Translations under genes and position numbers: made by a program | Shown: piece after piece, positions 4,017-40,000 of the stretch | Layout: each line of letters begins with the position of its first letter | Numbering within the stretch: the stretch's first letter is position 1 | Source of the DNA: Neelides folsomi | Lineage: Eukaryota; Arthropoda; Collembola; Neelipleona; Neelidae | Length of the DNA: 64,000 nucleotides | Reading direction: 5' to 3' | NCBI GenBank assembly: GCA_034687125.1 | Contig: JAQGBZ010000303.1 | Coordinates: 1-64,000, forward strand | The notes under the pieces: model-generated | The model's database searches: none | What the model was told of the DNA's origin: nothing | What the model saw: only the letters and a program-made list of their open reading frames with translations

Positions 4017-7000
4017 GTAATTAAACTTGAACAAAAGACTTTTCCCCTCTCATTATTCCACTTCTTGGTGCGTGTAATAGAGGAGAAGAAAGCAACCTTT
4101 GATGATTTGAGGAGACAATCTTTGAGAAGTCAAAGCTTAGCAAGCAATACAATATAAAGGAACATCGGAATGAAATTTCCCCTTTCAGGAAGAGAGGGAG
4201 AAATAAGAGATATAAAATAGGGAGTTTTCCTCACAGGGAGGAAATAAATGAACAAGGGCGAGTGTCATCCGTAGCTTATGGCTCCATTGTCTCAATGGGC
4301 AATTATCGGTCGAAATGAATGGAGGATGAGGAATGCTATATAGGAAGTGTGTATGATACATAAAGAAAGGTATACTATTGACATTAAGAGAAACTCGTCC
4401 AATCCTCCAAAAAGAAACGAAATCATTCATCAAACGGGGGAATTGGGGGAGATTTCTTGGGCTGGTCCCTTTATGAGTTTCCTCATCGCTCTCTTCAGAT
4501 TATTGTTTGCCTCCTGTCCTTACGACGCCTTTGGATCCTCCCATTCATTACGACCCAATGGTCCATTTGTCTTTGGTAGGAGCCGGGAGAGATGAGCTCC
4601 GTCGTCCCTCTCTCACTTCATCTCCTCCCTATTGTCCGGCAAAATAGTCGAATGGCTTTCACTCGTCCTACTCTTTGTTTTACCTTTCTATGGGGACACC
4701 CCCAGCGAATTTCAAAATTGGAGACGGAATTTGACGTCAAGAACATTATGGAGTTTATCGTCATTATTCAAGCCCATCTCCTCCTCCTCTTTTTGAAAAG
4801 TTCTTTGTTCGGGAATTGGATTTCCTTCCTCCTCGTCAGCCTTGCATAACCCGTTATGTATACATATATTTATATGAAATTAGATTTTGCAAAATAATCA
4901 CAGCCTCTCAAAGGAAATTTATGAGGATGAGGAAAATATTGCTATTTTCGCCCTTGCACTGTAAGCCCCTAGTGAAATTTATACTCACGGAAAGCGGAAG
5001 TTTTCCCCCTCGACATGTCAGGTATAAATTCTGAGAATCGGATTACGCCACTTTCCGCTCTTGCTCCTCTTGGATCGGTGGGATTAAGTCGAGCTCAGCC
5101 TCGTCTGCCACATTAAGAGTCGAAGTGCCCAAACTTTTAAAATATCCCTCCAGAAAGAGGATGTTAAGGAGATCTAGACGGGTTTTCTTTTCCTTCTCAT
5201 CTTCATCGATTATTCAAATTGGGGTTAATTAACCAAGTGTGATGGCATGCGGAGTCTTTGGGGTTTCAAGGTGATGATTCCAGCTTTTGCTTTTTTCAAA
5301 TCATCGTAATGCATATGGTTATGGAAAATGAGAATTAGAACCTTTGGTCCCCCACGCCTCGTATTGAAACTTGAGCTTCCGAGGTTTATGTTAAACAGTC
5401 TGGAAACATGTTTAGTATCTCATATGGATTTTTTACTCCGTGTGTTCCTTCGTGTGAAAGGGGAAGATCAAAGCGTGCATTGTGATTAGACCCAAACTGT
5501 GGTTTCCCTAGATGAAATAGACTTAAATGGGCGCGTTCCACGACCCCCAAGAGCTTCTTCCCACTAAATTAACGCAAAAGTCAATCTCTTCCCCTTCTTA
5601 ATGTTCACCTCTTACCCTTCTCTTGCTCCAGAAGGGAATGGAGCCTTAGTAGTGGATTAAAAGATTCATTCCCTTATCTCTTCAAGATTCTCCTTGTAAT
5701 GTGAGTACTCTGCGAAATGACAATGAGCTATAGGAAGCAAGAATCATTCCAGTGTTTATTATACTAACTTTAAGAATCCTTGGACTCAAGGAACTGTCGC
5801 ATCATATCGAATCTTCCTCAAAAGGATAACTATTAACCTTAATTAATTAACCATCTAAGAATCTCATTTATTTTAACTGTAAGCCCGGAGATTAATTCTT
5901 AAGGAATCTTATCGCTTGGACCATTGGGGTAAATTGGAAATCTGCGCTAATCAAGACTAATTGAATGTTTGGCCTCTTCGCTTCCAATTTCATTTGCCCT
6001 TTGAGTCAAAGAGGAGTTGAGAGGGGAATTATTAGCGAATTAGGGAAATTGGAAAAGGATGACACGGATGATATGATTGCCATGCACCAAGCTCTATTGT
6101 TTATCATATGAGTTGATTCCTCTTGGCTCTCGTTCCTCTCCCTTCAACGACGTGTTGAAAGAGAGACGGAGATGATGAGTAAAAGCTTTTCTCTCAAAGT
6201 CAACATTCATTACATTATACCTCTTATTATTTTACACGCGCTCTCCTGGTTATGAATAAAGCCGGTTCTTCTTTGCCGAGTAGATTATTATTATGACCAG
6301 TCATATACACCGAGATCAAAACATACAAACATTTCTCAATTCCTTTTTGTCTGTTCGGTCGTAAATAGAGATTTGTTGAGGAGGATTGTTTAGTTTTCGC
6401 ATTTAATTAGAAGGGAGCTGCTGGTTGGGAAAAAGGTTTCCAAGTGTAAGAGAATTAAAGTACACAAGCGTTGGTCGTCCTTTGAGCCCCGCAGTGAAAT
6501 AAGTGGGGATTTGGGCAAACAGTGGAGGCGGGGGGAATCTGACGCTATTTCTCTCCCAATATTTCGCTTATCAATATTAGCTTTTTGAGTGTCACACAAG
6601 GGAACCCATTCACTTCTGCGGCCCTTCTCATCTTCATTCCTCTCTCTTTGACTTTTTTTATTTGAAATCGTTAAGTGGGAATTGCCCTCGCGGAGTTCGT
6701 TGCCTCCTTTAACTTGTGGATTCCCAATTACCTTCCAATCCAAACTATAAACAAGTTTACAACTTATATAAACTGTTTTATTTATAAATGGTCTGCTATA
6801 TCTATCAGTTCACCATTAGTCGTAATACTTAATAGATATCCCTGTAAAATTCTCACATTTAGAGTTTTCACCCCTTGGAGTATTTATTAAATTACTTGAT
6901 GCAGTATCCTTGTTCCTTTCACCCTCTAAGCGCTCAATCATCTAAATTGTAAATGCAAGCCTCGAAGCTTCCTCCTCCCCGTCAAAACGAATTCAAAAGT

Positions 7001-13000: not shown

Positions 13001-16000
13001 GATGATATCAAGTGGTTAGAAGTTGAACATTTCCCGCGTCGGGCGATGTAATAAGGAAGCTCCGGTTTCCTTCCTAATCTTCGGTCAAACAATTTCAACT
13101 TCCTAGGATAAAACTTTTCTTTTTTACCCACCCTTGTCATTCCCACTTACGCTCTCGCGTTGGTAGAAAGATCCCAAGAAACTCCAACTTTATACTTTCA
13201 AGTTCACATTCTACTTTATTAAATGGAAGTTCTCATCCTTCTCCCTCAACTTCCTCCTTGACTGTCAATCACTTCCAGCCTTTTCCTCTTATGTTCCTCC
13301 CCTCGCATTTCTCGGCATCCCAACTGCTGGTGCTGTTCAATTGTTCCCGTATTGATCCCCATTTGGAAAAGAGCTATGATAGATATATGATAGTTGTAAA
13401 TAACTAGCTTGATTTGTTATACGAGACGTTCCTCGTTAAATTTAAAATTTCATATTTCCAACTTATTTACGTACAATTCATGTGCCGTCTTCTTCCACAT
13501 GCTCTCTCCATGGCCAAAGTTTGTGTATAAAGGTTCCATAAAGAAGTTGAGAGAATCACACGTCCAGTTTTCCCCTTCTGTCTCTTCTACTATTTGCTTT
13601 CTATGGAGGGGGACGAGCAGCTCTATGCCCCAACCAACTTTTCGGTTAATGATCTTCAAACATTGATCTCGCTCCTACGTGGAAATAAGGAAATTCAAAT
13701 AATTATTTTATCTGTCCTCAACTTGGAAACTTCAAGGATTCCCTCTAAAACTCCTCTCACCCATAAGAGCCCAATGGACCTTCATTTCCATCTATTAAAT
13801 GTTTCTTTGTTCTTCTCTTCAATTTTCCGTGTTTAAGATTATTTTAACCATGGCTTAAATGTATAGACGGCAGAGATAGAGGAATTGTCAACAGTCGTTT
13901 GTTTGCCTCGTTCGACTTTCGAAACTTTCCACGTTTATTAAACTTGAGGGATGGAAGACAGAAGGACTGGGGTTTTTAAGGGTTTGAGGGGCCAATAAAT
14001 GAATATGCATTAACCACTACTGTTTTTAATAAATCATTAAAATGGGAACCATTTTTGTTTATTTAAACTGAAGGCTCAAATATTAGTTGAGTCATCCTCT
14101 CACCTCCTTGAGACTTGCGGTAATCAAAAGAGATCCCAAGAGGGTCAACAGCAAAGTAAAACAACTTGAGATTTTAAATTTCTTTTAAATCCCTTTGGAC
14201 CCTACACGTGTTCGGTTAAGATTAAATCTCTAATTTTTCTCCATACTAACACAGTTTCAGAGGAATCTTCATAAATTTCCATATCCTTATGTCATATAAC
14301 TTCCCATTTCCCTCTCCTCCTCCCTTCGTCCTTTATGATGAGAAAATGGTGCGGAGTCATAAAGGATCCAAAATTTGGACGATGCCGTAAGTTGAGATAA
14401 AACCTCGACATTTCTTATTTACCAAGAACCGAACCGAACCTTCCACATGAACGGATCGAATATGTATAGGGAAATTTCCAATAAAGCCTTAAATTTCATG
14501 CAAATGAAGAGGCGCGGAAGGAGGAGAAATGTTGAAGGGCCGGAACATTAAAAGACTTTATCGTCCATAAGAGTGAGGAATGTGGCCATTTGGGCCAATG
14601 ATGGAACTTTCACCTGAAGATCCCCACCAGCTGAGCCTTCCCAATCCACGTGTGGGAAAGGGCGAAAAACATATATTCTATGCATTTCACATAATCTCGG
14701 ATTTGGCAATATTTCCTCCTGACGTTCGCATTTTTCATGTACGGAAAAATGAAGTGAGAGATGAAGATTTGAGCGGAGTGGCAAAAAAATAAAATTAATG
14801 TGCGAAAGACTCGCTGGGATCATCGGGGTGGTAAATGAGGATTTCCCAATCGGTCGTCATGTTGCTATCGGCCATCGGCCAGTTTGTGTATCGATCCACG
14901 CCCGTTTGGATGGAGGAGGATCTGAAGAGCCTTCATATCCCCAATTCCCAGTTTACTCTCCAGGAAACGAGGGAGAATTTCTCGCCAAAATATTTTTGAG
15001 ATCCTTGAGCAAAGAAAGTTCTTGGCGAAGGTTGTTGAACATCTCCTCGAGTTTTACTTCACGGATCGAATTCAAATCCTCTTTGGTCCGATATGAGAAT
15101 TGGAAGGTGTCGGATCTTCGGGGTATTTTATAGTCGCGGAGAACAAACGGAGAATTTCGACCATCTCATCAGTGCGAAAGGGCTATAACATCAAGTAGGG
15201 AGAAGACAAGGAAAGCTTTTGCTCCAATTTAAACTTCCATGTCGAATACACAACTATTTGGAGATAGGGGCAGGGGCGATAAACGTTGCCCTCCGTCTCT
15301 TCGCCGTCACTATCTCCACAATGAAGGGCCGCCCTTAATTTCACATGTCGCAAAGAGCCCTTCACCGTAATTGCTTTTCCCCTCAATTACATCCGGATCA
15401 TCACCCACACTTGGAACTGACTTTACAAATAATGGTTCACCATTTATGCAAACAATGGTTCTTAAACATAATTATTATGCTTTCACAAACGTCGATTTAC
15501 TTCTCATAGAATTTATTTCAATTTATTTTTAACAATATTAAGTGTTTATGGCAGACACTCTACTGTTAGTTAAAATAATTGATATATATAAATTATATTT
15601 AATATTTAAATATATTTTTATTTTGCGGAATAATTAAAAAATACCAAAACAGGATTTAAAATATAATAGGGGTGATTCAATATACAGCTGAGCACGTTCT
15701 GAGCAAATGAAATGCTCAACATTTGCCTAAACCAATTCAATATCGTGCCTAAGTTAGGATTTGCTCAGCCAACCTAGGATTTGCTGAGACAAGTTTAGAA
15801 ATGAATTGGGAACGCCGAAAGCATGCGCGATGCCCAAACCAATTCAATAAACAATTATTCCTAACTTGGGCATGCCTAAGTTAGGCCATTCAAAACAGCC
15901 TTAAGATTTGCATAACTTCCTATTCTAATTTAAAAATGGTTGTACCTCTATTTTGAACAATCATAATAGAATATAAACGAAGAAACTACCTTGAAAATTT

Positions 16001-19000
16001 ATCAGAAACAGAAGTAGAGTTTTTTGAAAAAGCGAATATTCCAAATATTATTGGAGCGATCGACAAGTCTCACATTGCCATTCAAGGACCATATCTTAAC
16101 CCTGAAATTTACTTTTGTCGAAAGCAATTTCATAGTATAAACACGCAATTTGACCTATTTTGTGAGACGACCCCATCTCACAAAATAATCGACGTTGTTG
16201 CAGAATGTCAGGGTTCAACAGCTTTATATGGAGATTCAAAATTAATGGGTATTGAATTTTTTCAATTATTTCGTCTTATGCAAATTTACTTGTTTAATAT
16301 AAAAAAATTTTATGTATATAAATTGCATATTTGATCAATAGGAGACTCAGGGTATTTAAATGAAATTAATCTATTGACTCCATTCAGAAAGCCAATTGAC
16401 GAAGCCCAAGTAAATTTTAATAATGCGCATCGCATTACAAGATGAAGCTTTGGAAGGAAGTCCAGATTTAGATGCTTAGACAAGTCAAAATCTATTATTG
16501 ATGTATAAAGTTTTAAAGGAAATATTTATATTAATGCAATGATTAATTCACAGATCAGGTGGCCATTTATGTTACGCGCCATTAAAAGTATGCAAAATCA
16601 TTATTGCAGCTTTAGTGATGCATAATTTCGCACAAGAAAGAATGAATTTAATTTAAGAAGATCAAAATGATTTAGAAAATGTGTATTTACCTCAATTACA
16701 AATAGAGTTAGAAGAGAATAAATTAATCATTTTTTATACGCCAATTGCTCCCTCAATAATTCATTATGTTGTCTTTTCGAAGAATTTTTTTCTTCTAATA
16801 AATTTGCGATGATATTCAGTCTCATTTTGGGTTTCAAGCTGTTGAATTTATTGAAGTAGGTACAATGGAGAGGGCCTTGTACCATTAGAAGTAGAGTTAG
16901 TTTGAGTTGTGAATCGAGGAACATTTGACTTCATGGGTTCAGTTTGAATTTTGTTCCAAGTTCCTCTCTTGGGTCATTTCCTCATGTTTCCTCATGTCTC
17001 ATGTTTATAAGAATGTGTATTTATTTAATTGACTATTTGAATATTTATTTAACAATCATAAATACTAAAATTCATTTATCTAAATATTTAAATTACCATG
17101 CTGCTCGAACTTGGCATTACAACTGCTAACTCCGCACATTCATCGTTTTTCACACACTCTGAAAAATTATTTGGATAATATTTGATATTTTGTATTTGTA
17201 TTTATAGTTTCATTATATCATAATTTACAATTTAATATTTTTCTATTATAAAAATATGAATTTTTAAATTATCTGACATGTCAAACCCCCCAGGTACTCC
17301 TTGTACGGCGTCAATTAGAATAGCAGAACGAATCTTTTCATCGTTTTCCGAAAGAGGAATTATTTTCCGAAACCTCCACCTGTGATTCGCATTTCAACGC
17401 GATTACTTGCTTCGATTTTCTTAACTGTATCTTTCAGTTTGCTACTTTTTTTTACCTGAAGAGTTTTTTACCTGTTGTTTGAGACCGAATTGACTTCGTT
17501 CCAAATATCTCCAGCCACTTTCACTTTTAAAGGTAGTTAAACTTGAAAAATGAGTTTCAAGACCAGCTGTATATCCATCTATCAAAGCCGACTCTGTCCA
17601 ATTAACACTTCTAGCTTTTGACTTTTGACTCATAATGGTAATTTTCCATTAATTAAATGTGATGAGGGAATTCAACGTAAAGATTATCTCACAATCTCAT
17701 AAAAATTCAAAATAAAATGAACGCGGTTCATCATACGGTTTCAGCTTTCCTAAAGTTAGAAAATGCTGAGCAAGCCAGAGTCTGAGCAAAATTGTATATT
17801 GAATCTCACGATTCGTAAGTTAGGCATCTAGCTGAGCAAATCCTAAGCTAGGCAAAAGCTATGCAAATGTTATTGAATCACCCCAAATATACCTAACATA
17901 TCGGTATTTATTATATGTACTTTGTATTAAATATTTTGCAACTGGAAATTTATAAAGGTATTGGAGTATTGAAAGCCTTCAAAACATGTACAGTGTGATA
18001 CAAATATTATGTATTAACAACAAAGATCAAGAAATTGTCTCGTATGAAAGCCTTGGTGTATTTCTTAAAGGCGTTTGAATTTGAAGAGAACCAATTTAGT
18101 TGAAAGGCTCAAATGTCCCGAGGGCGAGGAAGATCGTGAAATTTACTTATGATTTGCGGTCGCTGTCTTTTAGCCGTCTATTAAGAGAATTAGAGGGTCG
18201 GCTTTTCCAGAAACAAAAAGTAGCAAAAAGAACCCTCAAGTTGATTTTGAAGTAGGATAAAGAAATAAAAAATATGGCTCGTTTGCCCTTTGGCTATTTC
18301 GCAACATCAAAGTTTCTGACGGAAAAAACACTTTCAATTCATCTTGATAAGAAAATTCACCCGGCCTCTAAAAAAATTCACAAATCTCCTTTTTCTTAAG
18401 ATAGAAAAGATAAACTTTCCTCGGGTGAATTTTCCAACATAATAAATATCAAAAACCTAAAGTTTTGCATAAGCAAATTCGCATTAGTAAACAATATTAT
18501 GTTTTATTGTGCAAACAATCTGGTCCGATGCAGAACTCGGCATTTTTCAAACATAACCACCGCGAACTTCCTACTTTAACTAACACGAGTGGTTAAAGTG
18601 ATGTAAATTTTGTAAGCTTGCCAGATAACTTTATAGATTTGCAAATTAATCAAACTCCAATTTAAAAATGTATCCAGAATGGGACTGAGGGATGAAACGT
18701 AAATTATAGGTGTGGTACATGTGTAGCCAGGAGTCTATAGTTTATAGTGAAAGGGACACCTTTGGGATCCTCTGGTTTCCACCTCGGTGGGTTTTATTAT
18801 AACCATTACTTTCCTTTATGCTTTCCATGGTCGGCTGACATGTGGTTTCTCCAACTATCTCCTTCCCGCCCATAACGAGTTTTTGTCATATTTCCCATTA
18901 AAGAACCTTCCTGACAACCCTTCGAGACGACGGGTAAGAAAGTGTCATCAAGAAAGGCATGAATATGTAAAACCCAATCCTGGGTTTCCTTCTATCATCC

Positions 19001-22000: not shown

Positions 22001-25000
22001 CAGAGAAAACCCGCAGACCCAGAAGGCTCTCGCAATATGTCGTACCAAAATGACAGAAGGAGATAATGGAGAAAGTTGATCTTAATGAGAGCGTTCTTCC
22101 TCTTCCTTCATATAACATATCTCTAATAACTCTGCTTGGCTTTGTAGGTGAGGGCGGGCAGCCACCGCGGATCGTCGAACATCCTGCCGACTCACTCGTA
22201 CCCAAGAGCGAACCTGTGACTCTTAACTGCCGAGCAGAAGGCGATCCGCAGCCGGAAATCACTTGGTTCAGAGACGGGAAAATGATCCGGAGTGAGAAAT
22301 CCGAGCAACGGTCGCTTCGCACAGTTCTCCCATCCGGTTCTCTGTTCTTCTTAAGGGTGAGTTCAAATAAGGTTTTTTCACAAAATTACTCAATTACCTC
22401 TAGAGGATGTAATGAAAGGGAAATTTCCTATAAAATAATCACATTCTTCCATATTATCATCTTTCCTTGGGAAATTTCATGATTTCCTCCTCCTATTCAT
22501 TTTATGACTCAACTCCCTCCCTTCCCTTAAGATCAATTTATGTACATAATACAGGAGATATTTCATGTCATAAGCTCCTTCGTGTATTTTGTGAGGAATC
22601 GTGAATCATTGGAGTTAATGTAAATAGGAATTTCCTTATGCTTCAGGAGCCTCACAATCTCGCCCTCGTTGATGCTATTATAGGAAATGAAATCAACTTC
22701 TGATTTCAATTGGTGTGAGAGTGGCGCCTGAGGCGACGTCAATTCATTGACTTTTAAATTCTGGAGGCTGAGGAATTAAGATTGCTCTTTTCCTCATTGT
22801 ATTCAATTCTCCCTTCCTTAAGTAGTGGAGGGGGGAGGGGGATAATGTTATGTATGCCCATGTACACCATTGATTAGCCACTCGAAAGCTCTTGGAAGTG
22901 TAATGTTCTCATTCCCTTCCCTTCCTTCTCTCCTTCGTCCGGAAATGAAATTTTAATGAAGAGCAAGGTGACATTGCAAGCGAAGACTCTCACCCTCCCC
23001 TTCCAACTTCCTCTCCTTCATTCTCTCCAAGAAATGAGCTTTCTCTTTTCAATGTCCTGAATGTAAAAGAAAGTAGCTAAAGCTCCTCATCCGTTCTCAG
23101 GTGCGGAAAGACGATGATGCCGGAGTTTATGCCTGTGTGGCCCAAAACCAATTTGGGGAAGTCACGAGCCGGAACGCGTCTCTCGAAGTTGCAAGTAAGT
23201 ACCTCTTGCATTTTACCGCTTTTTATAGTCATCTGTATGCAAAATGCATCTGGAGTCCGTCATTAGGAAATTACTCTTTAACCATCCATCATTTTTTATA
23301 ACAAGTTTGCTGATAGGGCTTTGAGGGCTTATTTATGAGTTCTTGATCCGTGATGATCTTATTCCGTGTGGAGAAAGAAAGGAGTGGACATTTAAAAAAT
23401 GTGAAATCCCCAATCTGGACTATCGGCGGCGAGAGGCAGGCGTGCGAAAATGAAAAATCATTCTGTCAGCCCCATGCAGTTGGCGTAGACAACGCGGAGG
23501 CCTCCACTCCGATCCATTATTTTAAATCGAGTCAAACAAGCAATTAATCTTGTAGTTGAGCCCAATGGGCCAACTGGGCCAAAACTCACATGTCTCACTC
23601 AACTGACTCCCCGTTTTCAATTTCTTTCCCCGTTTCACCACGACATTAATTCCCTTTCCTATGGATGTAACTGAAATGTTAACTCCTTCAGAATTTAAAC
23701 CCATTAGGGTCCAAAGGACATTTGTAATGCAAACATGTAAATACAAGACTCGAAATAACATTCGAGCCAATTCCGAACATGCATTTATATAAATAATCTA
23801 TTGTATCAAATCCCATACATTCAAAGTAACTCGAGATGTCCTAACTCATTGGACAGATTAAGAGGAATTTCCCTCAATTGCATTGCACATCTGGAAATCT
23901 GAATGCGAGGTCTCATCAAGTGGGAATTCAAAGTTTGCATCGATGGGTTGGGAATTGGCAAGCCCCATCGACGCAGACACGCAGTCACGTCCCAAGTGAA
24001 AGCCTGATTTCCCTCATTAAACATTTTCCTCTCTCAACCCAACATTTTGTATACACGAAGGGTGAAAGTCATTCCGGGTTTGATGAGCGACCCGTTCATG
24101 TCTACACATGACCTCTCAAGTTTAGATCCGATAATGAAGAGTGGTTTACGGAGGGAAAATTATAGGATGAGTGATCGTTACTCTCAACCCTACCATCACC
24201 CTTCATTTACATGTCCGTTGCCAGGTTGACGGGGCAGTAAGTGGTTGAAGGATATCTTCAACATCTTTACGAGATCCTGTCATTTCTGTCACCATTATAT
24301 ATCCTGGTTTAGCTTAGACATATAAAGCATAGTCTAACTAACTTTGTTGCACCTCCAGCCTCAGGGTATTCAATCATCTTTCAAAAGTTTTAAGCAGGAG
24401 GTGAGGATCGTCGAAAGTACAAACTTGTTTAATTATTCCATAGTGAGAATTATTAATTGATCGCAAATGAACCAATTTATCGTTGTAGAATGGGCCTGGA
24501 ATCCAAGTTTAATGCCTTTTCTGCAGGTTCATAATTAGAGATGTGGTTTGAAGAACGCGGTTTTCCCGTCGATAAAGGCTTTAACCAATAAATCACCGCC
24601 TGGAATGATTATTAATGTCTTCCTCCCCGGCGGGAGCGGTAATGAACAGATGTTATAGACGAGATCGATTCAATATTCACTCTCTATATACTTTGGAACA
24701 ATGCAAATTGTGTGAAAGTGAAGAACACGGCAGCTCCTGTCATGTACCTTCCATTTACCTCATCATCCCCTTGCTAAACTATTTAATTTTGATTAGTCGG
24801 CACGAGTCAAATGTATTTATGTATCGTAGATAGGAAAAAGGGGAAATCGCATTCTCTCACCGAATATTGATCTGGTGATTAGTAATAAAGATAAGCCCTT
24901 CGTAATAAACTCACCAAAAAATCCTTTAATTTATTGAATATTTACATGAACTTTGTCATTCACTCTGCATGTGTATTTATGAGTTCATGTTCAAACATCC

Positions 25001-28000
25001 ACGTTCACACAACTCCCATGTTACATTTATCCATTTTATCCATTGCACTTTCAATTTGCGTATTTGTTTGTATCGGAGTTGTTGTATTGTTGTATGCAAT
25101 AAGGGCTTTATTAGAAATCAATTCCAATTTCTTGTCATAATGTTTCGCTTTTCCGTTCTTGCCTTTTTTTATAAGAATTGAACCTAATTTTTTCCAATCG
25201 TTATTTTGACCCAAAAAGTTTCATGGCGGAATTTTATCGCATTTAATAAAATTTGATGCAAGTTTACTAATGAATTTGGTTTTATGAATAAAATAAAAAA
25301 GGAAATTGGATAAAAAGAAATTGTGCGATATCACGTCAATCTCAAGAATTTTTCTCATTACCAATAAAAACAAACTTATAACCTTTTACATTTACAAAAA
25401 ACAGATGTACAGAAATTTACGTTTTGTAAGTTTCAAAAGTTGAGCAAAATAAGAAAATTGCATGGGATAACTTTAATGAAATTTCAAAACATTGTGCATT
25501 TTTATTTATTACTTTAAACTCGGGTTTTCTGTACGTGTGCATTTGCCCTTATTTGATAGGCGAATGCTAATTTTCACAGTTATTGCGTGAACGGTTGGCG
25601 ACAGGCGAGACGGTAAATCATTTAATCCACACAAACTTGTGAGAAACTGTGAGAGAAGACCTCATAAAAAAATTATATATATTAAAAATATCTACACGTA
25701 GGAAATAAGGAATAGTTATAAATTAAGTGAATGAAAAGAGTGAGCACTAAGGTCCTCATATAATTTATGTCTTTAAAACCAACGGGGCAAGTCCTGAGTC
25801 ACGTTTAAGAAGGCTGTGACTGATATGTCCATTGCGTGCTAATACCAATTAATGCAATCTCCTTGTTATGACTTTCACATGTAAGGCGAGGAAAGGAGTT
25901 AAAGAAAATAAAATACATTCAAAAATTGCAGCTACAGTTTATCTCTTCCTCAGAGCCATTTGAGTAAAGGAAGGTAATTTTGTTTCAAAGGAAGATTAGC
26001 TGTTTCTCTACGTTGTAAATTAATGGCAATTCACAGGGAAGGAGTTAATGGCTGTTATTTAAGAGTCTCCTTTTCTCTTCCATTCTCTCTTATAACTCAC
26101 CGATTTACTTTTTACGACTGAGGTTTTACCGAAAGGAGTATGGGTTTGACCTGTATGTTTGTCTGTATGTCTGCGTTTTCTTTGGAAGCTATCTCCTCCC
26201 TAACGCCTTAACCGATCAGACCACATAATACATCAATCGACAGGGTAAAATTTCAGGCAGTACGTAGGCAGTAATTTTACAACGATCAATTAATTAGCCA
26301 TGATTAACCATAGAAAAAAATTGAAAATCCATTAGAAACACAACTATAGTTAATTCTCACTGGGAACACGCGTGAGTTTTAATCGAATTATTTAAAATGC
26401 TTAAGCGGGGCTTATCTGGTAACGTGCACAAGCGTTACCTGTGCATATTTAAGCGGTTAGTTCAAACTTACGCGTGTTCGGAGCTCGAATCTACTATAAT
26501 AATAAATAAAATTTCTATAAAATAATTTATAATGTGATCGGCAATTTCGTTAAACTTTGTAAATGGAAATTATGATTTTGAAACTTTAACTACTTGACTT
26601 GCCATCACTCTCGAGATGGCAAGTTTACTCGAGTTTACTCGAGTTTACTCGAGTTTACTCTACAATCTTTTAATTGTCATTTACTATCCATTTTAAAAAT
26701 CACTTTTTAAGTCAAACAACGAATTCACTCCTTTCGATTAAAAATCATGAAATAAAACCAAATTGAAAAATTGAAAAACGACAGGCATGGGTAATAAAAA
26801 GCATTGCAAATTAGAACAGATATATAAATTGTAATCATATTCACACTTATTGTTAGCAAATACATCTAAACTTATCAGTAATAGGTAAGCGAGTTTTGGG
26901 TTCTGATATCTGATTAATGTTTAACAATGATCAACGTTCTTCAGCGTTTGTGTAATTCTTCTCATAGGTTATTGTTCTAACAAAGACTATGAAGCTAATG
27001 TATTTCTCCACAAAACACCCAAGACTCATCACACTTTGGGATGATATAAGCGTCTGACACTTGAAAGTGTTCACCATTGTTCAAGATATGGAGTATTAGA
27101 AATTAGATTGTAATTTCCCCACGGGTAATTTAAACGATATATTCTATAGAATTTGAAGGTCTTGTATGCCTCTATAAATGACCTAAGACTCATTAGGCTG
27201 GGTTATGATACAAGTGTCTGACGCTTAAGTGTGTTCTCTATTATAATTATAATAGAGTTAATAAAGTAAGAATTTTTAACCTATCCATGATTGAATTTAA
27301 CTAGATTAATTGTAAAATACTTGAAGAATTTGCGACGAACTCAGCAATCATTTGTTGAGGTTATTTCATGCTTTTTATTACCAATGACTCAGTCGTTTTT
27401 CAATTTTTCAAATTGGTTTTTGTATTTACTTTTACACCAAGTGAAATACATTTTACACATTGTTTATCCTATCTACTCTTCCAATGGCAGTTTCAGAGAA
27501 TCAGATTAGATTCAAGTTGGAGAAAATTTGAATATTAAAAAGTTATTCGAGCTGAGGGGGAAATTCAGAGGAGATATGACCGTGCTTTACGAGTCGAGCA
27601 AAGGTGAAGGAGGCGAGGAAATATGCAATATTTTAGTATAAATGGAATTTCTATCTTCCCTCGGATTCCATTTCCTCATATTCGGGCGGATCTGCATGAA
27701 TCGAAACGTGTGCCCGAGTCCCGTGAAATATGACCGTCTGAAATTATCGTGAGTAAATTGAGGAAGTTGTGTCCGTGTGGTCCAGCGACCCTTTCCCGGG
27801 GAGTAAGATTTCTGAAGAGGTCATAAAGGGAAATAGAACTCCTTTTTATAGTTGGTCATCATGCCCTTGAATGATTGGCCAATTTATGCGACAGTTATTG
27901 TGATTTCCTGACACCAGAGGAAATCGAAAATTTCACGAACTAAAATTACAGGAGGCGAATGAAGGGGAAATATAATTCCTATCCTCCTTTTTAATCACGA

Positions 28001-31000
28001 TAAAATCTCCGTTCCCCAACCTCGCCTCCAGACAGGGATGAAAGTAAGTTCCCTATTGATTTCCCCTTACCTATGAACTCTGTGAATAAGGTCTACACAG
28101 GCGAATGCCGTACATTACTCGAATCTCTTTATTTCCAACCCCAACTTTCCTGCTAATGCCCCCAAATTCCCATTTTCATTAAGGTAACTTTCCTCCCTTC
28201 TCGTCGGTCGCCGAAACTCCGTGTAAATGTTACAAATGAATCGATTAAATGGGAATTAAAGCGCGACTCTTCGGGGAAGATAAGAGGAAGCTCAAAGTGA
28301 AAGACCTCAGTAGAGGACGAACATAGGAAAGATGAAGAGGAAAATCTCTTTAAATAAATGTCCTCTTTAGAAGAAAAGTAAACTCAGTTTTCAATCACAT
28401 TATTCAATTTTAATGCTCTTAGAACATTTAAGAGAATTTAATTGGAATTTTTCAACTTCGTCGGTTTGAAATTCCCATTAATTTCGGGTCCCACAGGGCT
28501 CTTCGTAACACTTCCCCTCGCAATGCCATTCTCTTCGTAAACAATTTAATTGTACAAAACCCTTCGTAATACTCATCTGATCGTACAATCTATTCTTCGT
28601 ATTAACTTTTCATCTTATTCAATATCTGATAAGTGGATGTTTTTCGATCAGAAGCCAGGACGTATAAGCATGGATAAACCACGCCATCATTAATGGTATG
28701 TAAAGCATATAATTGTTCGAAAAATGGAGGGGATGATTTGAATGTTCCGTCCGCAAATAAATGCCGAGATTTTGGTAGCATTTCTAATCCAGAATTAGTT
28801 CCAAAAATTACGAGGCGGTCCTTTAGTTGAAAATCAGGATTGTCAACTGAATCGTATTGAAGGAATTTTTCTCCACCCCCATCGTCACTTTTTTTCTGAT
28901 AGATTGTTCATCCAAAACCAATTCTTACTCTAAATGTAAAGTTTGTTCCACTAGGATTAAAGCTAATTGTAAAAGGTTTTACATAAGTGAAGCAATAAAG
29001 TTAGTGGCCATTGAATAGAATTATTTTTTTATTCTAGCAACTTTCTCTAAAATCTCGTATTACATTTTGTATGAGTTTATAAAATGTATACTTATTTCTC
29101 GGATTATCTGCGGTGAACCAATTTTATATCGGTTTTACCATTGGTTTACCCTTGTCGAAATCAATACATTACAAGCACGATTAGATTATAAAAAATGAGA
29201 TTTGAGGCTACCTGGTTCACCGAAAAACTTTATTATTTTCCCATTTTGAGGAAAGAGCATAAAGTGAGTCGAAGTTGCGTGTGTACACGAAATAGGAACA
29301 AATGGGAACAAAATAGACGTCGTCACTTCCACTTAATGGATTCCTCACATGAATCCTCTGCCTATCTCCCTCCCAAGTGAGGAGGAAGATGAAGGAAGGA
29401 GTTACATGAAACGTTTGTTATGACATTCCTTTCATTTTTCTTCTTCTTCGAAGACCCATTTTAATGAGATTCCATTAAATGGGAAGACTCGGCCTTAATT
29501 AGCCTTTAAATTCGTCTGACGTTTGGCGTCTCCGGAGAGCAACGCATTCATTTCTAGTCTTATCTCCTGAGACGGCCCTGGCAGGGAAAGATGAAGAGAG
29601 GGCGAAAAGAAAGAAAAAGACTTATAGCCCCATTGACTCTTGAGATCCGCAGGTTCAGGAATCCAATTCCGCCCCGTCCCACTCGAGGTATGAGAAGGCT
29701 GGAGAGACTTCTTTTTCCTGATTTTGATTGAATTTTTCCATCCACGGCTCTCCGCTCCCTCCTTAATTGACACATTTTTCATTCAAGATCAATTCTTTTG
29801 TGGGAGGAAGGCTCCCATTGTTTTCCCTTCTTCTCCCTTTGACTCTTCATTAGGAAAAGATAAAAAAGGAGGAAAAGAAATGATGGACGCGGTTGGAATT
29901 TCGATCACCTCAATCATTTCTTTTTCTTCTTTCTCTCAAACGGACAGGGAGTGACGGGAGAAGATGTAAAGAAACAAAGGGAGAATTCAACCATGGGCTT
30001 TCCTTTTTTTTCTTTTTAAAGTGACGAGGGGATGAAAGGCTTCTCAGTTTCTTATGCAAATGTAAAGAGGAGATTATGCAAGAGTAATGTATAATATTCA
30101 CCCTAGTCAATTAATAACTGCGGGGTGCTTATGAAATCCTTAGTAATAAATGATACATTCGTATATCTTTAATGTGAAGAGAGAAAGATGAAGCAATTAG
30201 AGCTGGCTTTCCCTCGTTGGGCTCAAAGAGTGGAGACAGATGGGGATGAAGATGGATTGAGGAAATGGGGAAATAATTATGAAGAGAGGAATTTAAAAGT
30301 TGCCTCTTATGAGTGGTGACTCGATTAAAGCCGATGATTCATCTGATTTTCACTCAAGTGCGAATCCCTTCGTCCCCTTTGGACTCAATCCATCGGTCCC
30401 GATGAGTGAAGTGCCGAATTCAACGACGTTCTTGAGCCTTTTGAGAAAGAGCAGTCAAATCCAGGGAGCGGATCTGAACCCAACAAGGGAAGATACATTC
30501 TGTGTACGTCAGTTTCTATCTTTCCATCCACATCTCCTCCCACCCTCAATCTCCCACATTCAGTTCCAGGAGAGAGAACGATGTTCCGCCCATTTCCAAC
30601 CACCCTCCTTTCCCCATTCTTCCCCATGTGGAGAGGGGAAAGAGAGAAATCTACACACATGTCATGCCGCCGCTCCTTCCGCTCCGATCCACCTGAACCT
30701 CCTCATAAAAAACCTTTGATGCTCGGTTGAATGAATAATTTATAATTGAATTAACTCCAAAGGGAACTTCCCTTTACGGAAGGAACTTTGATTTTCAAAA
30801 TCTTTGCAAAACTCTTTCAACTCCTTTTCCTTTAGCGATGAATGAATGCATGTATTGGAATTTATTTGGCAAATTCGTTTGATGGTTTTACAAATTCAAA
30901 ACAAGTGGAGAAATCTATAAGTATGTAAAAATAATCTTGTCTAAGGTATAATAGGATTGGAGTCGTTAGAGATAATAATGTTCGAACATGAAAGGAATTT

Positions 31001-34000
31001 TAATCAGTAAGTTCATAATACGTCAAAGAAATTATTTTCCCGCAACCGCACCCGCACCCTTTTGTCTACATCTGTTAAATAGGCGGTCAATTGGGTTGCA
31101 AAAGATGATTTCCAAAATTCCTGTCACCAATCCGCGTACTGGCTCTGGTGCTCGAATTCTAAGAGATTCATCGACAATTCCTACAATGTTCCCACCAGCC
31201 ACATTATTCAATATTTTGTCAACTTGGTTGAGAACATGGCCTGGGTCGACTGTCGGCCTTCTTGTTGCTGGGATGGTTGTTGCTGCAACCGTAGAAGCTT
31301 CGGTAGACGCTGCTTCTGTTGCTTCATAGACAGCTGCTGTAATAGGAGCGTTTGTGATGGGTGCGACTGTATTTGGAGCTCCGGTTATAATGTCAACAAC
31401 GGATTCCCCTTTTACAGTCCCTGTGTCACAATTTGTTGTTGGAGCTTCTGTGGTTGCAATTGCTTGTTGAACAGATAGGGATTGCTTCAATCTTTCTGAA
31501 AACGATAAGTCTGCCAAATACTAAAAATCAAAAAATTCAATTAAATCTTTCAATACACGAACAAAATAATAAAAAGGAGATTGATTTACCCTTGCTAAAA
31601 CCTCTTTAGTTTGACTTTTTAAAGCTTCATCATAAATCATTATTTTCTCTTCGAGCTTTTTTGAAAGCATTTTCTCAATAGAACTTATTTTCTTTGAATC
31701 CATATGTTTCACATCCTCAACAAATAAGATTTCACTTAATTGAAATGCAGCTAACTGAAATTGAGCAAATTATACAAAAAATCAGCCAAGGCAAATAAGT
31801 ACCATTACACTGTACTTGGTATTATATAAATATTTAAATCTTACGTCTTGCACAAGAAAAAATCCAATTGTTACAAATATTAAATAAGCCATTTTTTATT
31901 TTGAATTAAAATAATATTATTGGTTATAATTAAACTTTTAGATCATTCAGTAATAAATTTCTGTATTTTGTATAAAAAACCAACTAATAAAAGTTATGTG
32001 AGACTAAGCGCTACATTAGTCAAAATAACCTTTTTATTGTACAATTAGGTTGTTTTACATATCTTTAAGCCTCGTTTATTACAAAGGGTTTAGAAATCAT
32101 AATTTGATTCCACTTGATGCATTTGAATTATATATGTTTTCCTCAATTATAATAATCCTTCAAACTTGCATGCCCGTTAATACAATAAGTAATTGAATGT
32201 GCGATTACATTAATGATCTAATTGCAAGAGCAATGAACTCGAGATAATCCATTAATATAATCCGACCAAACTTTCTCCGATGCTACATAAAATGCATAAG
32301 CGGCACATGGTGGTTCCATTGTTTCAATCCACTGCCCTAGAATTTAATGATCGAAGCCACTAAATAATTTTTAACCGATTTCATTTAATGGTTCAAGCTC
32401 AATTAAGTAAATTAAAAGATTTTCCACAAAGTGTTTAAAGAGCCGATTTGACCCACGCAACTCTATTTACTCTCTTCAAGTCCACTCAACAAATGGAGCG
32501 AATGAAAAATAAACGTTCACTCTACGAAACATATTTAGCCTATAGTAAAGTACCATGGGTCGTATTTGATTAGCTAATTACAGGATTTTGGTATGAAAAA
32601 CAAGGAAGAGCGGATGAGTTTAATTAAATTTCCTCACATATCTACTTTATATTGTATTTGTACATGGGCAAGAGTTGTCGGCAATTCTTGGCCACGTATA
32701 AATTCCCAAGGCATATGCATGAATGTTACGATTTGGGGTAGGAGAAATGTGTAAAACCTTGTTTTGACTTACCATATGTTAATCAAGCAAAGGGGAAGGA
32801 AGAATGTTTCTCGTGGGGGAGGAACGACTGTTTAATTTGGTAACTTTGATAGAGAAGGTATTTGCATCCGCGGCTGGCTCTCCCTCATAAATGTAGATAA
32901 CCTCACATGGGCTCATGCATCATCCCCGCATTATGTTTATCAGGAGCTCATAATGGGCCTGCTGAGGGAGGCGGAGGATAAAAGAGACACACACCCGCCC
33001 AATAAAGATAAGAAGGCAAGGAAAATGAGGAAGAAATATGGACAAATGAGGAAGCGTGTGTGGGCTTGGTTGATCCCAAGTCAAAATTACTTATTTTTAA
33101 GGGAAAGTAAATACGGAAGAAGATGAGAAAATCATGTTTTTCTCTACAATTCTCACGAGTTTTCCTTCATCCTCTCTCTGTGAGAGGTTATCTGAAAGGC
33201 AAAAGGTACTGAAAATTCTCCTTTCCCTTGAGTTCCTTTATCAAACTTTCTTCTCTTGGACCTTTATGGAATTATCTATTTAGTTATAAAATAGAATCAC
33301 CATCTATGGAACCTACAAATGAGTGAAGATAAGAAGTATTTACATTTAATGTCCATATTTCCTACACAAAACCAAGCATTACTTTTAATCAAAACATGAG
33401 ACCAAAACATTTTTATTCATAATATAAAGAAATAAACCGCATAAACCTACTTGTTCAATTTTTTATAGTAAATGTGCACAGATTTGAGGAAAATATATAA
33501 TGGGCACTTTTGATTTTAGAAATCTGGTCGTAAAACAGACTTTATTAAATCCTTATAAATAAGAGCCATTAAGGAAAAAATAAGTTCTAACGTGAAATTT
33601 TTGTTTTGTAGCACTCCGGGACGAGTTTCGGTCATCGCCTCAAAATACGTGGGTGGCCCAAGGAGAAACGGCAGTTCTCGATTGCGAGCCTCCAAAGGGA
33701 AACCCCGAGCCCAAGGTATCGTGGAAGAAGAACGGACACCCCATCGATGTGAAAGCAAACGGGTAATGGACACATTTTTCATCTCCGGCTCTTCAGGAGC
33801 TTCGAGTAATGCTGATACAGTGGAACTAAACTGCCTCCTTCTTTCTAAAGAATCCTCTCTAACGAGAAATGAGTAGATATGGTGTTAAGGCCTTTAGTAA
33901 AAAAGAGCTCCTTTCAAATCCAAATACACCATCACACCACCCATGTAATATTGAAGGTCTCCTTTGAGCCACTGTGGTTGTGTTATATGTTCAAAATCAT

Positions 34001-37000: not shown

Positions 37001-40000
37001 GAAGAAACTCTTTTTTCAACTTTTACCTCCATTTCCAAAATCAAGGTTTCTCCTAAAGTTCATTGGTTCATACGTTGTTAGAATTTAAGAGCAATTTCAT
37101 TTAAAGATTTATGCCACTTGAGAGATTCTTTGGAGAATGGAAGTTGAAATCATTAAAGTGGCTTAAGGAATAAAAATGATATTGAGCAGATCCTGTTTAG
37201 TTGGACGAAGGGAGGATTTCATTCTTTGGATTTTTGCACGTGCAAAGTGGATTTACAATGCCTCTTTAAATTTTTTATTCTTTCCCTTACTTCTATTTTA
37301 GTCATAAGGAATATAAATTGTTCTCAGGAGATTTACACGTAGGGGCGGCCAATCGCAGGAATTTGAAATAGGATGAAACTTTTAACTGAGCTCATTATCT
37401 CTTTCAATGCCTCATGTCTCATTATTGGGTTTGGGTATTGTAGAGCTCGAGAAGGGTGACAGTGGGATGTACGAATGCGTCGCTTCATCGAGAAGCGGAA
37501 AATACGTGTGGCGGGCATTCCTATTCGTTGAAGATCAAAATGATCCGAATGTTATATTCCGACTCACCGGGGTAGATCTTGGCAGTTTGCGTCCGCGAGA
37601 GCCGCCAAAACCTCAAGTTGTGAAGGTCGACGCGACATCAGTGACAATCGCATGGCATCCGCGCTATTTTTCCTCACCCGAAGTGATTCAATCCCAGGAG
37701 TTGGATCTTTTTGAGAGGAGAAAGGGAGAAAATGAGCAATTCCCTCCAAAGAATGAGGAGAAAGAAGAAGACGATGATGATGATGACAGTGACAATGAAG
37801 ATCTAATGCTCGACGATGATCCTTTCACATTTTCTCGAACGAGTGACAGTTTCGCCTCTGTCAAAAACTCATTCATTCCACGAGCCAAACCCGAGGAGGA
37901 ATTCAATAAGCCATTCTATGAAGGAAATGAGGAAAGTGAAGAGGAGGACGGAGGTCCTCATGACGGGTTCGACGAGGACGAGGAGGAAGAAGAGGAGGAT
38001 TACGAGTCTGGGCCTTCGTCCAACTTTGGAAATTCATTTGGAGGCGAGGAGGAGAACAGGACGAACAACCTCATCATTCAGAGTACAAAGAAGACAAAAT
38101 CGGAGGGGAAGGTTCTCAAGGAAGTTCCGTCATTTCCTCCAGTTAAAAGTACAACGACGGCAGCTTTAACTACCACTACGACTACAGAGGTGACCACGAC
38201 GAGGAGCCGTCCTGGACCAAATAATCTTTTAAAGCAAGGGAGCACAAGGCCGAATCAAATCACGTACAAAGTGGAGTATTACAGCCCCAATGAACTCAGA
38301 TCCGAATGGCTCTTAGGAGCCACCAACGTGCCCAATGAAGTTTTCAGGCTACAGTACCTCAAGCCGAATACGGAATATGTGTTCTTCGTCCGCACTGTCA
38401 CTGCTGACGGCTTCACGTCCGCCCCAAGTCCCATTTCAGACCCTGTAAAAACCCTCATGAGTGGAAATCGGAACAGAGATGTGGAATTGGCCGCTGCAAG
38501 GAAAAAACTCGACTCTTCAATCGTCGTCATTTTAAAACAAGCCTATCCCACGTCGTTCACAGCCATAAAGATAGAATGGCAGGTAAATATACATTTGGAC
38601 CATATTTATTTTGTTGCCTTAAATTCACCAAAATTACATTTTCCTTTTAAATGAGTTTGAATGCTTGTAAAATAGTGCTATTCTTTGTATTTAATACTGT
38701 TTGTATTCCTCACTGGTAAAACTGGTAAGTATTTCAATAATGCCCTAACTTTGTATTCGTTTTCATTGAGGCGAAAATCGAAGGATGAATTAAAGATTCA
38801 TGGAGCGTAGAGTCTCTTTATTTACTAAACCCACGTATTATAAAGTAGAGCTTGCAAACATTTCGTCAACGGATAAAAGATTCGTAAGTAGTCCTTGTGT
38901 ATACATTCGGGTTTTCATTTTAGATTGTGAATGCGGGCGAATATATTGAAGGCTTCTACATCTACTACCGGAAGCTGGGACAACGAACTGAAGGCACCTA
39001 CCAAATGCTAACTGTCCTCAACGCGGGCTCCACGACCTTTAACATCGTGAGCCTCGACAAATACACAACGTATCAAATATTCCTTTTGCCGTTTTATAAA
39101 AACGTGGATGGCCGCCCTTCCAACTACTTTAATGTGACAACACTTCAGGATGGTAAATTCTAAATAAATTCCTTCATAAGCAGACATTAGTAGAATTTTG
39201 TATGAAAATAGCTTGCGAGAATTTTGCTAAATCGTTTTAATATATCTGTAATATATTGATAGATATTAGTATATTAGGAATATAAGTCTATTCATTAGTA
39301 GAGTAATATCGCATTTTTCTTTTATGATACTAAAAGTTAGGTTTAATAAATTACAGTTCCATCGGCGCCACCGGAAATTGTCGACACAATTACAGTAAAT
39401 GGAACGGCGTTGGTTGTTCGTTGGAAACCTCCGCCTGTCCGACACCAAAATGGTATCATTCTCGGCTACCAGGTTCGCAAACTCAGCTTTCTTTTCAATT
39501 ATACTCAATTCAACTCCTTTACTGCTCGAATTGAACGAAGAAAGGAGTGAATGAATAAGAAGGAACATTAGATAGACCTCAAAGGATGAATAGAGACTTA
39601 AGTCGTAAATGAAGCTGTAGAAATGAAGGAAATTGAAATTTATTACCACAATGACTTTTATGCCGGCATAAAGGAGTTTAAACTGCATGTAATAAGTGTG
39701 TGTTGGAATTCCTAGCTTCGAGTCTGGTCTGGAGCAACGCTCGCTGGAAATATGACTGTCAACGGATCAACCGTGTCTTTGCTCCTGAATAATTTGAATC
39801 GAGGGGAACGTTACAGTCTCCAGATTGCTGCCTTCACATCAAAAGGCCTCGGAGTTTTTTCTTCCATGAAGAGCGTCGAGTTTGGAGGCGAAGATGATAA
39901 TGAGATGAGCAACATAGTGATTCCCGACCTTCATCCAAAAGGGACAAAAAGAGGAGGGAAGGGTACGAATGTCATCGATGAGCCGGAAGGTCGCGTGAGG

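Follow-up and report, generated by a model that had tools for sequence, protein, structure and literature searches.

Results

A probable 200-residue loop inside FN3-1 of a Robo receptor

The Robo gene on contig C303 of Neelides folsomi carries an open-frame insert inside its FN3-1 domain, a real feature that places 200 residues between the B and C strands of that domain. We consider it probable that about 191 residues have been added to the B-C loop of FN3-1, and that this disordered, acidic, Thr-rich and low-complexity stretch is translated within a normal exon. The material was a 64-kb window of this contig (the whole stretch of DNA analysed), from a genome of 75 Mb in 840 contigs, the COI of which is readable with the invertebrate mitochondrial code.

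The gene extends over roughly 22-41 kb of the window on the + strand, its exons being recognised by eye. The exon of interest (37444..38582, + strand) encodes the end of Ig5, the whole of FN3-1 and the start of FN3-2; it sits in an open frame of 422 codons (37386-38654, + strand), has hand-assigned splice borders (acceptor TATTGTAG|AGC, donor GGCAG|GTAAAT), and aligns with human Robo2 (6iaa) before as well as after the insert. Its four top matches among solved structures were all Robo chains (6iaa, E 3.2e-17), with the first non-Robo structure at E 3e-4. The Ig1 and Ig5 exons matched Pfam Ig, the FN3-2 exon remained below the Pfam fn3 cut-off (16.7 of 25 bits), and the other Ig halves were spotted by eye in the translations. 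Farther along, the gene encodes a transmembrane helix of 21 residues (mean hydropathy 2.8) and a cytoplasmic PYATT motif, IPYATTTLI, which resembles CC1. With an Ig/FN3 ectodomain match, a transmembrane helix and this cytoplasmic motif, the gene is a Robo receptor, as the initial annotation had stated. Plasmids gave no match to the DNA of exon 37444-38582.

Two other features of the window were observed alongside. One intron of the Robo gene (23195-33611) measures 10,417 bases, which is large for a 75-Mb genome in which 22 sampled myosin introns had a median of about 120; and an open frame at 15957-16331 looks by eye like part of a HARBI1-type transposase.

Position and content of the insert

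We located the insert by alignment to Robo structures. The B strand, VTIAWHP (37641..37661, + strand; aligned to Robo2 6iaa and to 1uem), is followed by the B-C loop with its insert (37662..38261, + strand; 200 residues by alignment and residue count) and by the C strand, ITYKVEYY (38259..38282, + strand). On human Robo2 6iaa the two flanks fall on adjacent parts, with query residues 18-93 corresponding to chain residues 465-535 and query residues 293-398 to chain residues 544-646, which bears out the earlier placement of the insert in the B-C loop. From the B-strand Trp (37653) to the C-strand Tyr (38265) there are 203 residues, as against 12 in human Robo2, giving an excess of 191; the figure of about 190 residues between the strands in one uninterrupted exon, proposed from the first inspection, thus holds. 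The same inspection had given normal spacing as fewer than about 12 residues: short it is, but the exact limit does not stand, human Robo2 itself having 12. Likewise, its view that the flanking FN3 strands are conserved was borne out in part: both pieces align to Robo FN3-1, but the Pfam fn3 match is confined to the part downstream of the insert (model positions 30-80 of 84).

The 200 residues after WHP contain 33 Glu and 18 Asp (51 D/E), 20 Ser, 18 Thr, 15 Pro and 22 Lys plus Arg. Their translation holds all the elements listed in the initial annotation: two acidic blocks of 22 residues (37755..37820, + strand) and 26 residues (37929..38006, + strand), a single N-glycosylation sequon, NRT (38055..38063, + strand), and a Thr-rich run of 17 residues (38151..38201, + strand). 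The densest 30-residue stretch has 19 D/E; no such stretch in 15 long ORFs from this genome has more than 10. On a charge-hydropathy plot, the mean hydropathy of the insert (0.346) is below the boundary (0.465), which puts it on the disordered side, in keeping with the long charged loop described earlier. Searched alone against known domains and structures, the insert retrieved nothing (best Pfam match Nop14, E 0.38; best PDB match E 8.5). Tandem repetition was limited to three short, weak tracts (37970-37999, scores 31-33), which give no direct sign of growth by repeat slippage. The AlphaFold2 model, built from the single sequence, reached a mean pLDDT of 43; it is therefore uninformative on the fold, and we base no structural claim on it.

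A second Robo-like gene lacks the insert

An Ig1 search revealed a second Robo-like gene on contig C114, with 50% identity over Ig1. Its exon running from the end of Ig5 through FN3-1 into FN3-2 matches Robo2 over the full length (E 8.2e-24), and its borders and phase, read by hand from the DNA, correspond to those of the C303 exon (..ACAG|AT-LRGSDSG and ISWK|GTTTGT on C114 versus ..GTAG|AG-LEKGDSG and IEWQ|GTAAAT on C303). FN3-1 of this paralogue contains neither an intron nor the insert, and its Trp-to-Tyr spacing is 16 residues. When the exons of the two genes were aligned with MAFFT, the insert caused the first half of the paralogue to be misplaced; the spacings were therefore counted on the HMMER alignments. 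We also noted that the C114 exon (L013, at about 4437-5030) has an insertion of eight residues relative to Robo2 later in FN3-1, and that the paralogue has an acidic FN1-FN2 linker, DTDDVDEE.

Rarity among the FN3 domains of the genome

We read by eye the 110 FN3 matches listed in the genome, a number that is a lower bound. At least 71 of these 110 run from model position 10 or earlier to position 70 or later, and among the listed matches starting by position 15 and ending at or beyond 70, none exceeded the model by more than 37 residues. Another 32 listed matches are partial on one side; 27 of them lose the open frame within 29 codons on the missing side, which is the pattern that an intron would give. 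That leaves five: the C303 Robo; C77:52078; C28:310917 and C205:53927, both with the A strand directly upstream; and C205:55468 (56 codons). Long in-frame inserts within the domain numbered two among the 110 listed matches, that of the C303 Robo and a shorter one on C77, with C205:55468 and three matches ending at model positions 63-68 left out of this count. At the C77 locus (L039, 52015-52678; match C77:52078), 94 low-complexity residues, 18 of them D/E, separate the C strand from the E strand of one FN3 domain within a single open frame, and by eye the protein also has Ig and Cys-rich modules. A TIG-domain search returned nothing useful.

The insert is likely to be coding

We evaluated the insert as coding sequence and as intron. 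Its 200 codons contain no stop, whereas first-order Markov copies averaged 7.1 stops and were stop-free in 4 of 5000 cases; among 1426 overlapping windows of insert length in three introns of the same gene, none was stop-free. The G+C content of the insert is exon-like at 0.46, compared with 0.23 for the 22 myosin introns pooled and 0.23-0.40 for ten hand-assigned introns of the Robo gene. Judging from the open frame, from the composition and from the intron-free FN3-1 of the C114 paralogue, the insert is likely to be coding, and we infer that it is translated. Codon usage was tried as a further support and dropped: in a synonymous-codon test the true frame scored +1.0 with 0 stops, and was outscored by another frame with 18 stops (+22.8).

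The main competing reading is that 552 nt (37683..38234, + strand, phase 0) are spliced out as an exitron in some or all transcripts, yielding either long- and short-loop Robos or short-loop Robos only. This candidate is a GT-AG interval inside a coding exon, stop-free and a multiple of 3, and is the top-scoring frame-keeping pair in the insert region and within the exon, with ends that coincide with the insert edges. Its removal would leave 19 residues from Trp to Tyr, near the 16 of the C114 paralogue, and in FN3-2 of the same gene an intron does separate the B strand from the C strand (38583). PMC4484396 describes exitrons as having weak splice sites and G+C below that of exons, as being multiples of 3 in about half of cases, and as enriched in disordered regions; we counted these traits for the exitron reading, the candidate G+C (0.460) being slightly under the values for the exon on either side (0.521 and 0.481). 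It nevertheless exceeds the G+C of the introns measured (0.23 pooled, at most 0.40 in the ten).

The strength of the splice sites was assessed with several matrices. The myosin matrix was built from 93 of 101 myosin matches, eight being dropped because they lay outside the fetched regions or were overlapping alternatives, and kept 22 of 23 candidate introns. With it, the candidate donor (1.71) and acceptor (2.46) both scored below all 22 matrix introns, a gap that is overstated, as these introns were partly chosen by score and were scored with their own matrix. Applied to the Robo gene itself, the same matrix placed the candidate donor below 10 of 10 donors, and three of ten acceptors lower than the candidate acceptor. 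With matrices derived from the gene's own introns, the donor (3.76) exceeded one of ten left-out sites and the acceptor (2.72) five of 12; and in a leave-one-out comparison over 32 introns (22 myosin and 10 from the C303 Robo gene), the donor exceeded 3, the acceptor 6 and their sum 2. Weak as they are, the sites do not fall outside the scores of real introns in this comparison. Frame-keeping pairs of equal or higher score also occurred, however, in 11 of 45 ordinary coding windows from other long ORFs, so the candidate pair requires no explanation. The would-be acceptor AAG|CAA, moreover, encodes KQ, resembling the KQxxxRP of the coding loop on C114, which is a weak argument against splicing. 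Weighing these points, we regard exitron splicing of 37683-38234 as possible from its sequence features, yet unlikely.

As a separate observation, the intron at 38583-38923, which splits the B and C strands of FN3-2, is normal, and several other FN3 matches in the genome start near that model position just past a stop.

The insert could also be misplaced sequence in a chimeric assembly, or the gene a pseudogene. GA-rich low-complexity DNA assembles poorly, and a single assembly stands behind the insert, both of which count for such an artefact. Against it, the frame continues through 200 codons into the conserved half of FN3, searching the genome turned up no second copy of the insert (the DNA search skips simple repeats), and the remaining gene parts have splice sites, the transmembrane helix and the cytoplasmic PYATT motif. 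We consider an assembly or pseudogene origin extremely improbable.

A candidate glycosaminoglycan or tyrosine-sulfation site

Acidic block 2 leads into the motif YESG (38001..38012, + strand), a candidate only, with Tyr at 38001 and Ser-Gly at 38007-38012. The Tyr has six acidic neighbours within five residues. The single Ser-Gly of the insert has an acid at both -3 and -4 and more acid residues on its N-terminal side, in low-complexity sequence; the insert thus shows a trait of glycosaminoglycan (GAG) cores, a Ser-Gly preceded by acidic residues in a disordered stretch. Acid block 2 might accordingly be read as directing a GAG chain to this Ser, sulfation to this Tyr, or both, beside the Ig5-FN1 hinge. 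Highly sulfated human chondroitin-sulfate sites often have an acid at -4 and -3, the studied sites being in disordered or low-complexity regions (PMC10424144), and the acid placement here is the same. A rule demanding D/E at -3 and -4 and at least five D/E among the seven residues before the Ser fitted none of 53 control Ser-Gly sites (7818 residues) and 143 of 20000 shuffled inserts. The rule was, however, chosen after the insert sequence had been seen, so the candidate GAG site is only a lead, and given the acid blocks chance reaches 3.3% (660 of 20000 shuffles with acid positions fixed). The genome encodes a xylosyltransferase C-terminal domain (C530), and Slit-Robo responses need heparin or heparan sulfate (PMC5048398); against these, there is one site only, and it has Pro at +2. 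Open PMC papers yielded no report of GAG attachment to Robo, which is not evidence either way. We hold such modification to be quite improbable; as a part-time proteoglycan is compatible with the grown, translated loop that we prefer, the likelihoods of the two are not exclusive.

Discussion

A grown, disordered and acidic B-C loop translated in a normal exon is the reading that we favour, and its consequences can be outlined from work on other Robos. The FN3 fold would be kept, with the long loop extruded from it. When Fn1 is deleted, fly Robo1 remains able to bind Slit and to rescue midline repulsion (PMC5919748), which would explain how the expansion is tolerated, FN3-1 being dispensable for Slit binding and midline repulsion in the one Robo tested; the same finding weakens the idea that the insert must matter for Slit. 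The effects suggested in the initial annotation, on receptor spacing, shedding or Slit/heparan-sulfate binding, are conjectural.

The likeliest effect of the loop, if any, would be steric and electrostatic. In FN3 domains the B-C loop is found at the end that faces the preceding domain, which places the loop at the Ig5-FN1 junction. In mammalian Robos (PMC7083938), FN1 can dictate the open or closed state and oligomerisation, and NELL binding; a swapped FN1 made Robo1 monomeric; an Ig4-Ig5-FN1-FN2 hairpin masks the NELL site; and flexibility resides at the IG4-IG5, IG5-FN1 and FN1-FN2 linkers. A charged loop at Ig5-FN1 could hinder this hairpin and so favour the open receptor, and an effect of the insert on the balance between closed and open forms is possible. 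A further extension, built on motifs in the sequence and in our view very improbable, is a Robo with a polyanion of its own: at the hinge, a disordered loop of FN1 with GAG and/or sulfotyrosine attached would hold the ectodomain open and offer heparan-like charge in cis, as opposed to in trans elsewhere, possibly switchable by the exitron.

As a naturally occurring receptor with some 190 charged-loop residues at FN1, this Robo lends itself to asking whether regulation of the family depends on closing. Were the loop glycanated, the receptor would supply its own polyanion; should it be no more than tolerated growth of low-complexity sequence, it would strengthen the case for weak constraint on FN1 in invertebrate Robos. 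Among open PMC papers searched by title and the start of the abstract, we found no Robo FN3 insert in print, which is not proof of absence.

Compared with canonical Robos (human Robo2 6iaa; Robo3 FN1 6pog and 6pol), the C303 receptor shares the Ig5-FN1-FN2 order, the FN1 strands and the transmembrane helix, and departs from human Robo2 in the distance between the FN1 B-strand Trp and C-strand Tyr; a short B-C loop is an ordinary Robo trait and does not define membership. When the Robo3 NELL2 hot-spots (numbered as in PMC7083938) were mapped on the 6iaa alignment, W602 and R630 were kept, and F594, L626 and I624 were replaced by Tyr, Val and Glu, respectively. The C77 protein similarly has low-complexity sequence inserted in frame, within an exon, into an FN3 domain, but it is another protein and its insert lies between the C and E strands, with 94 residues there versus 25 in C114 FN3-1. 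The insert domain in FnIII-2 of IGF-1R and the insulin receptor is likewise a long insert within a receptor FN3, but, as described in PMC7343240, it holds the alpha-beta cleavage site, Cys and the ligand-binding alpha-CT segment, whereas the translation of our 200-residue insert has no Cys and no RxxR. Finally, Bombyx Robo1a/b and vertebrate Robo4, the known departures from the 5+3 arrangement at the date of PMC5919748, likewise indicate that the Ig5/FN1 region tolerates large change; in those receptors whole domains were lost, whereas in the C303 Robo a domain gained a loop.
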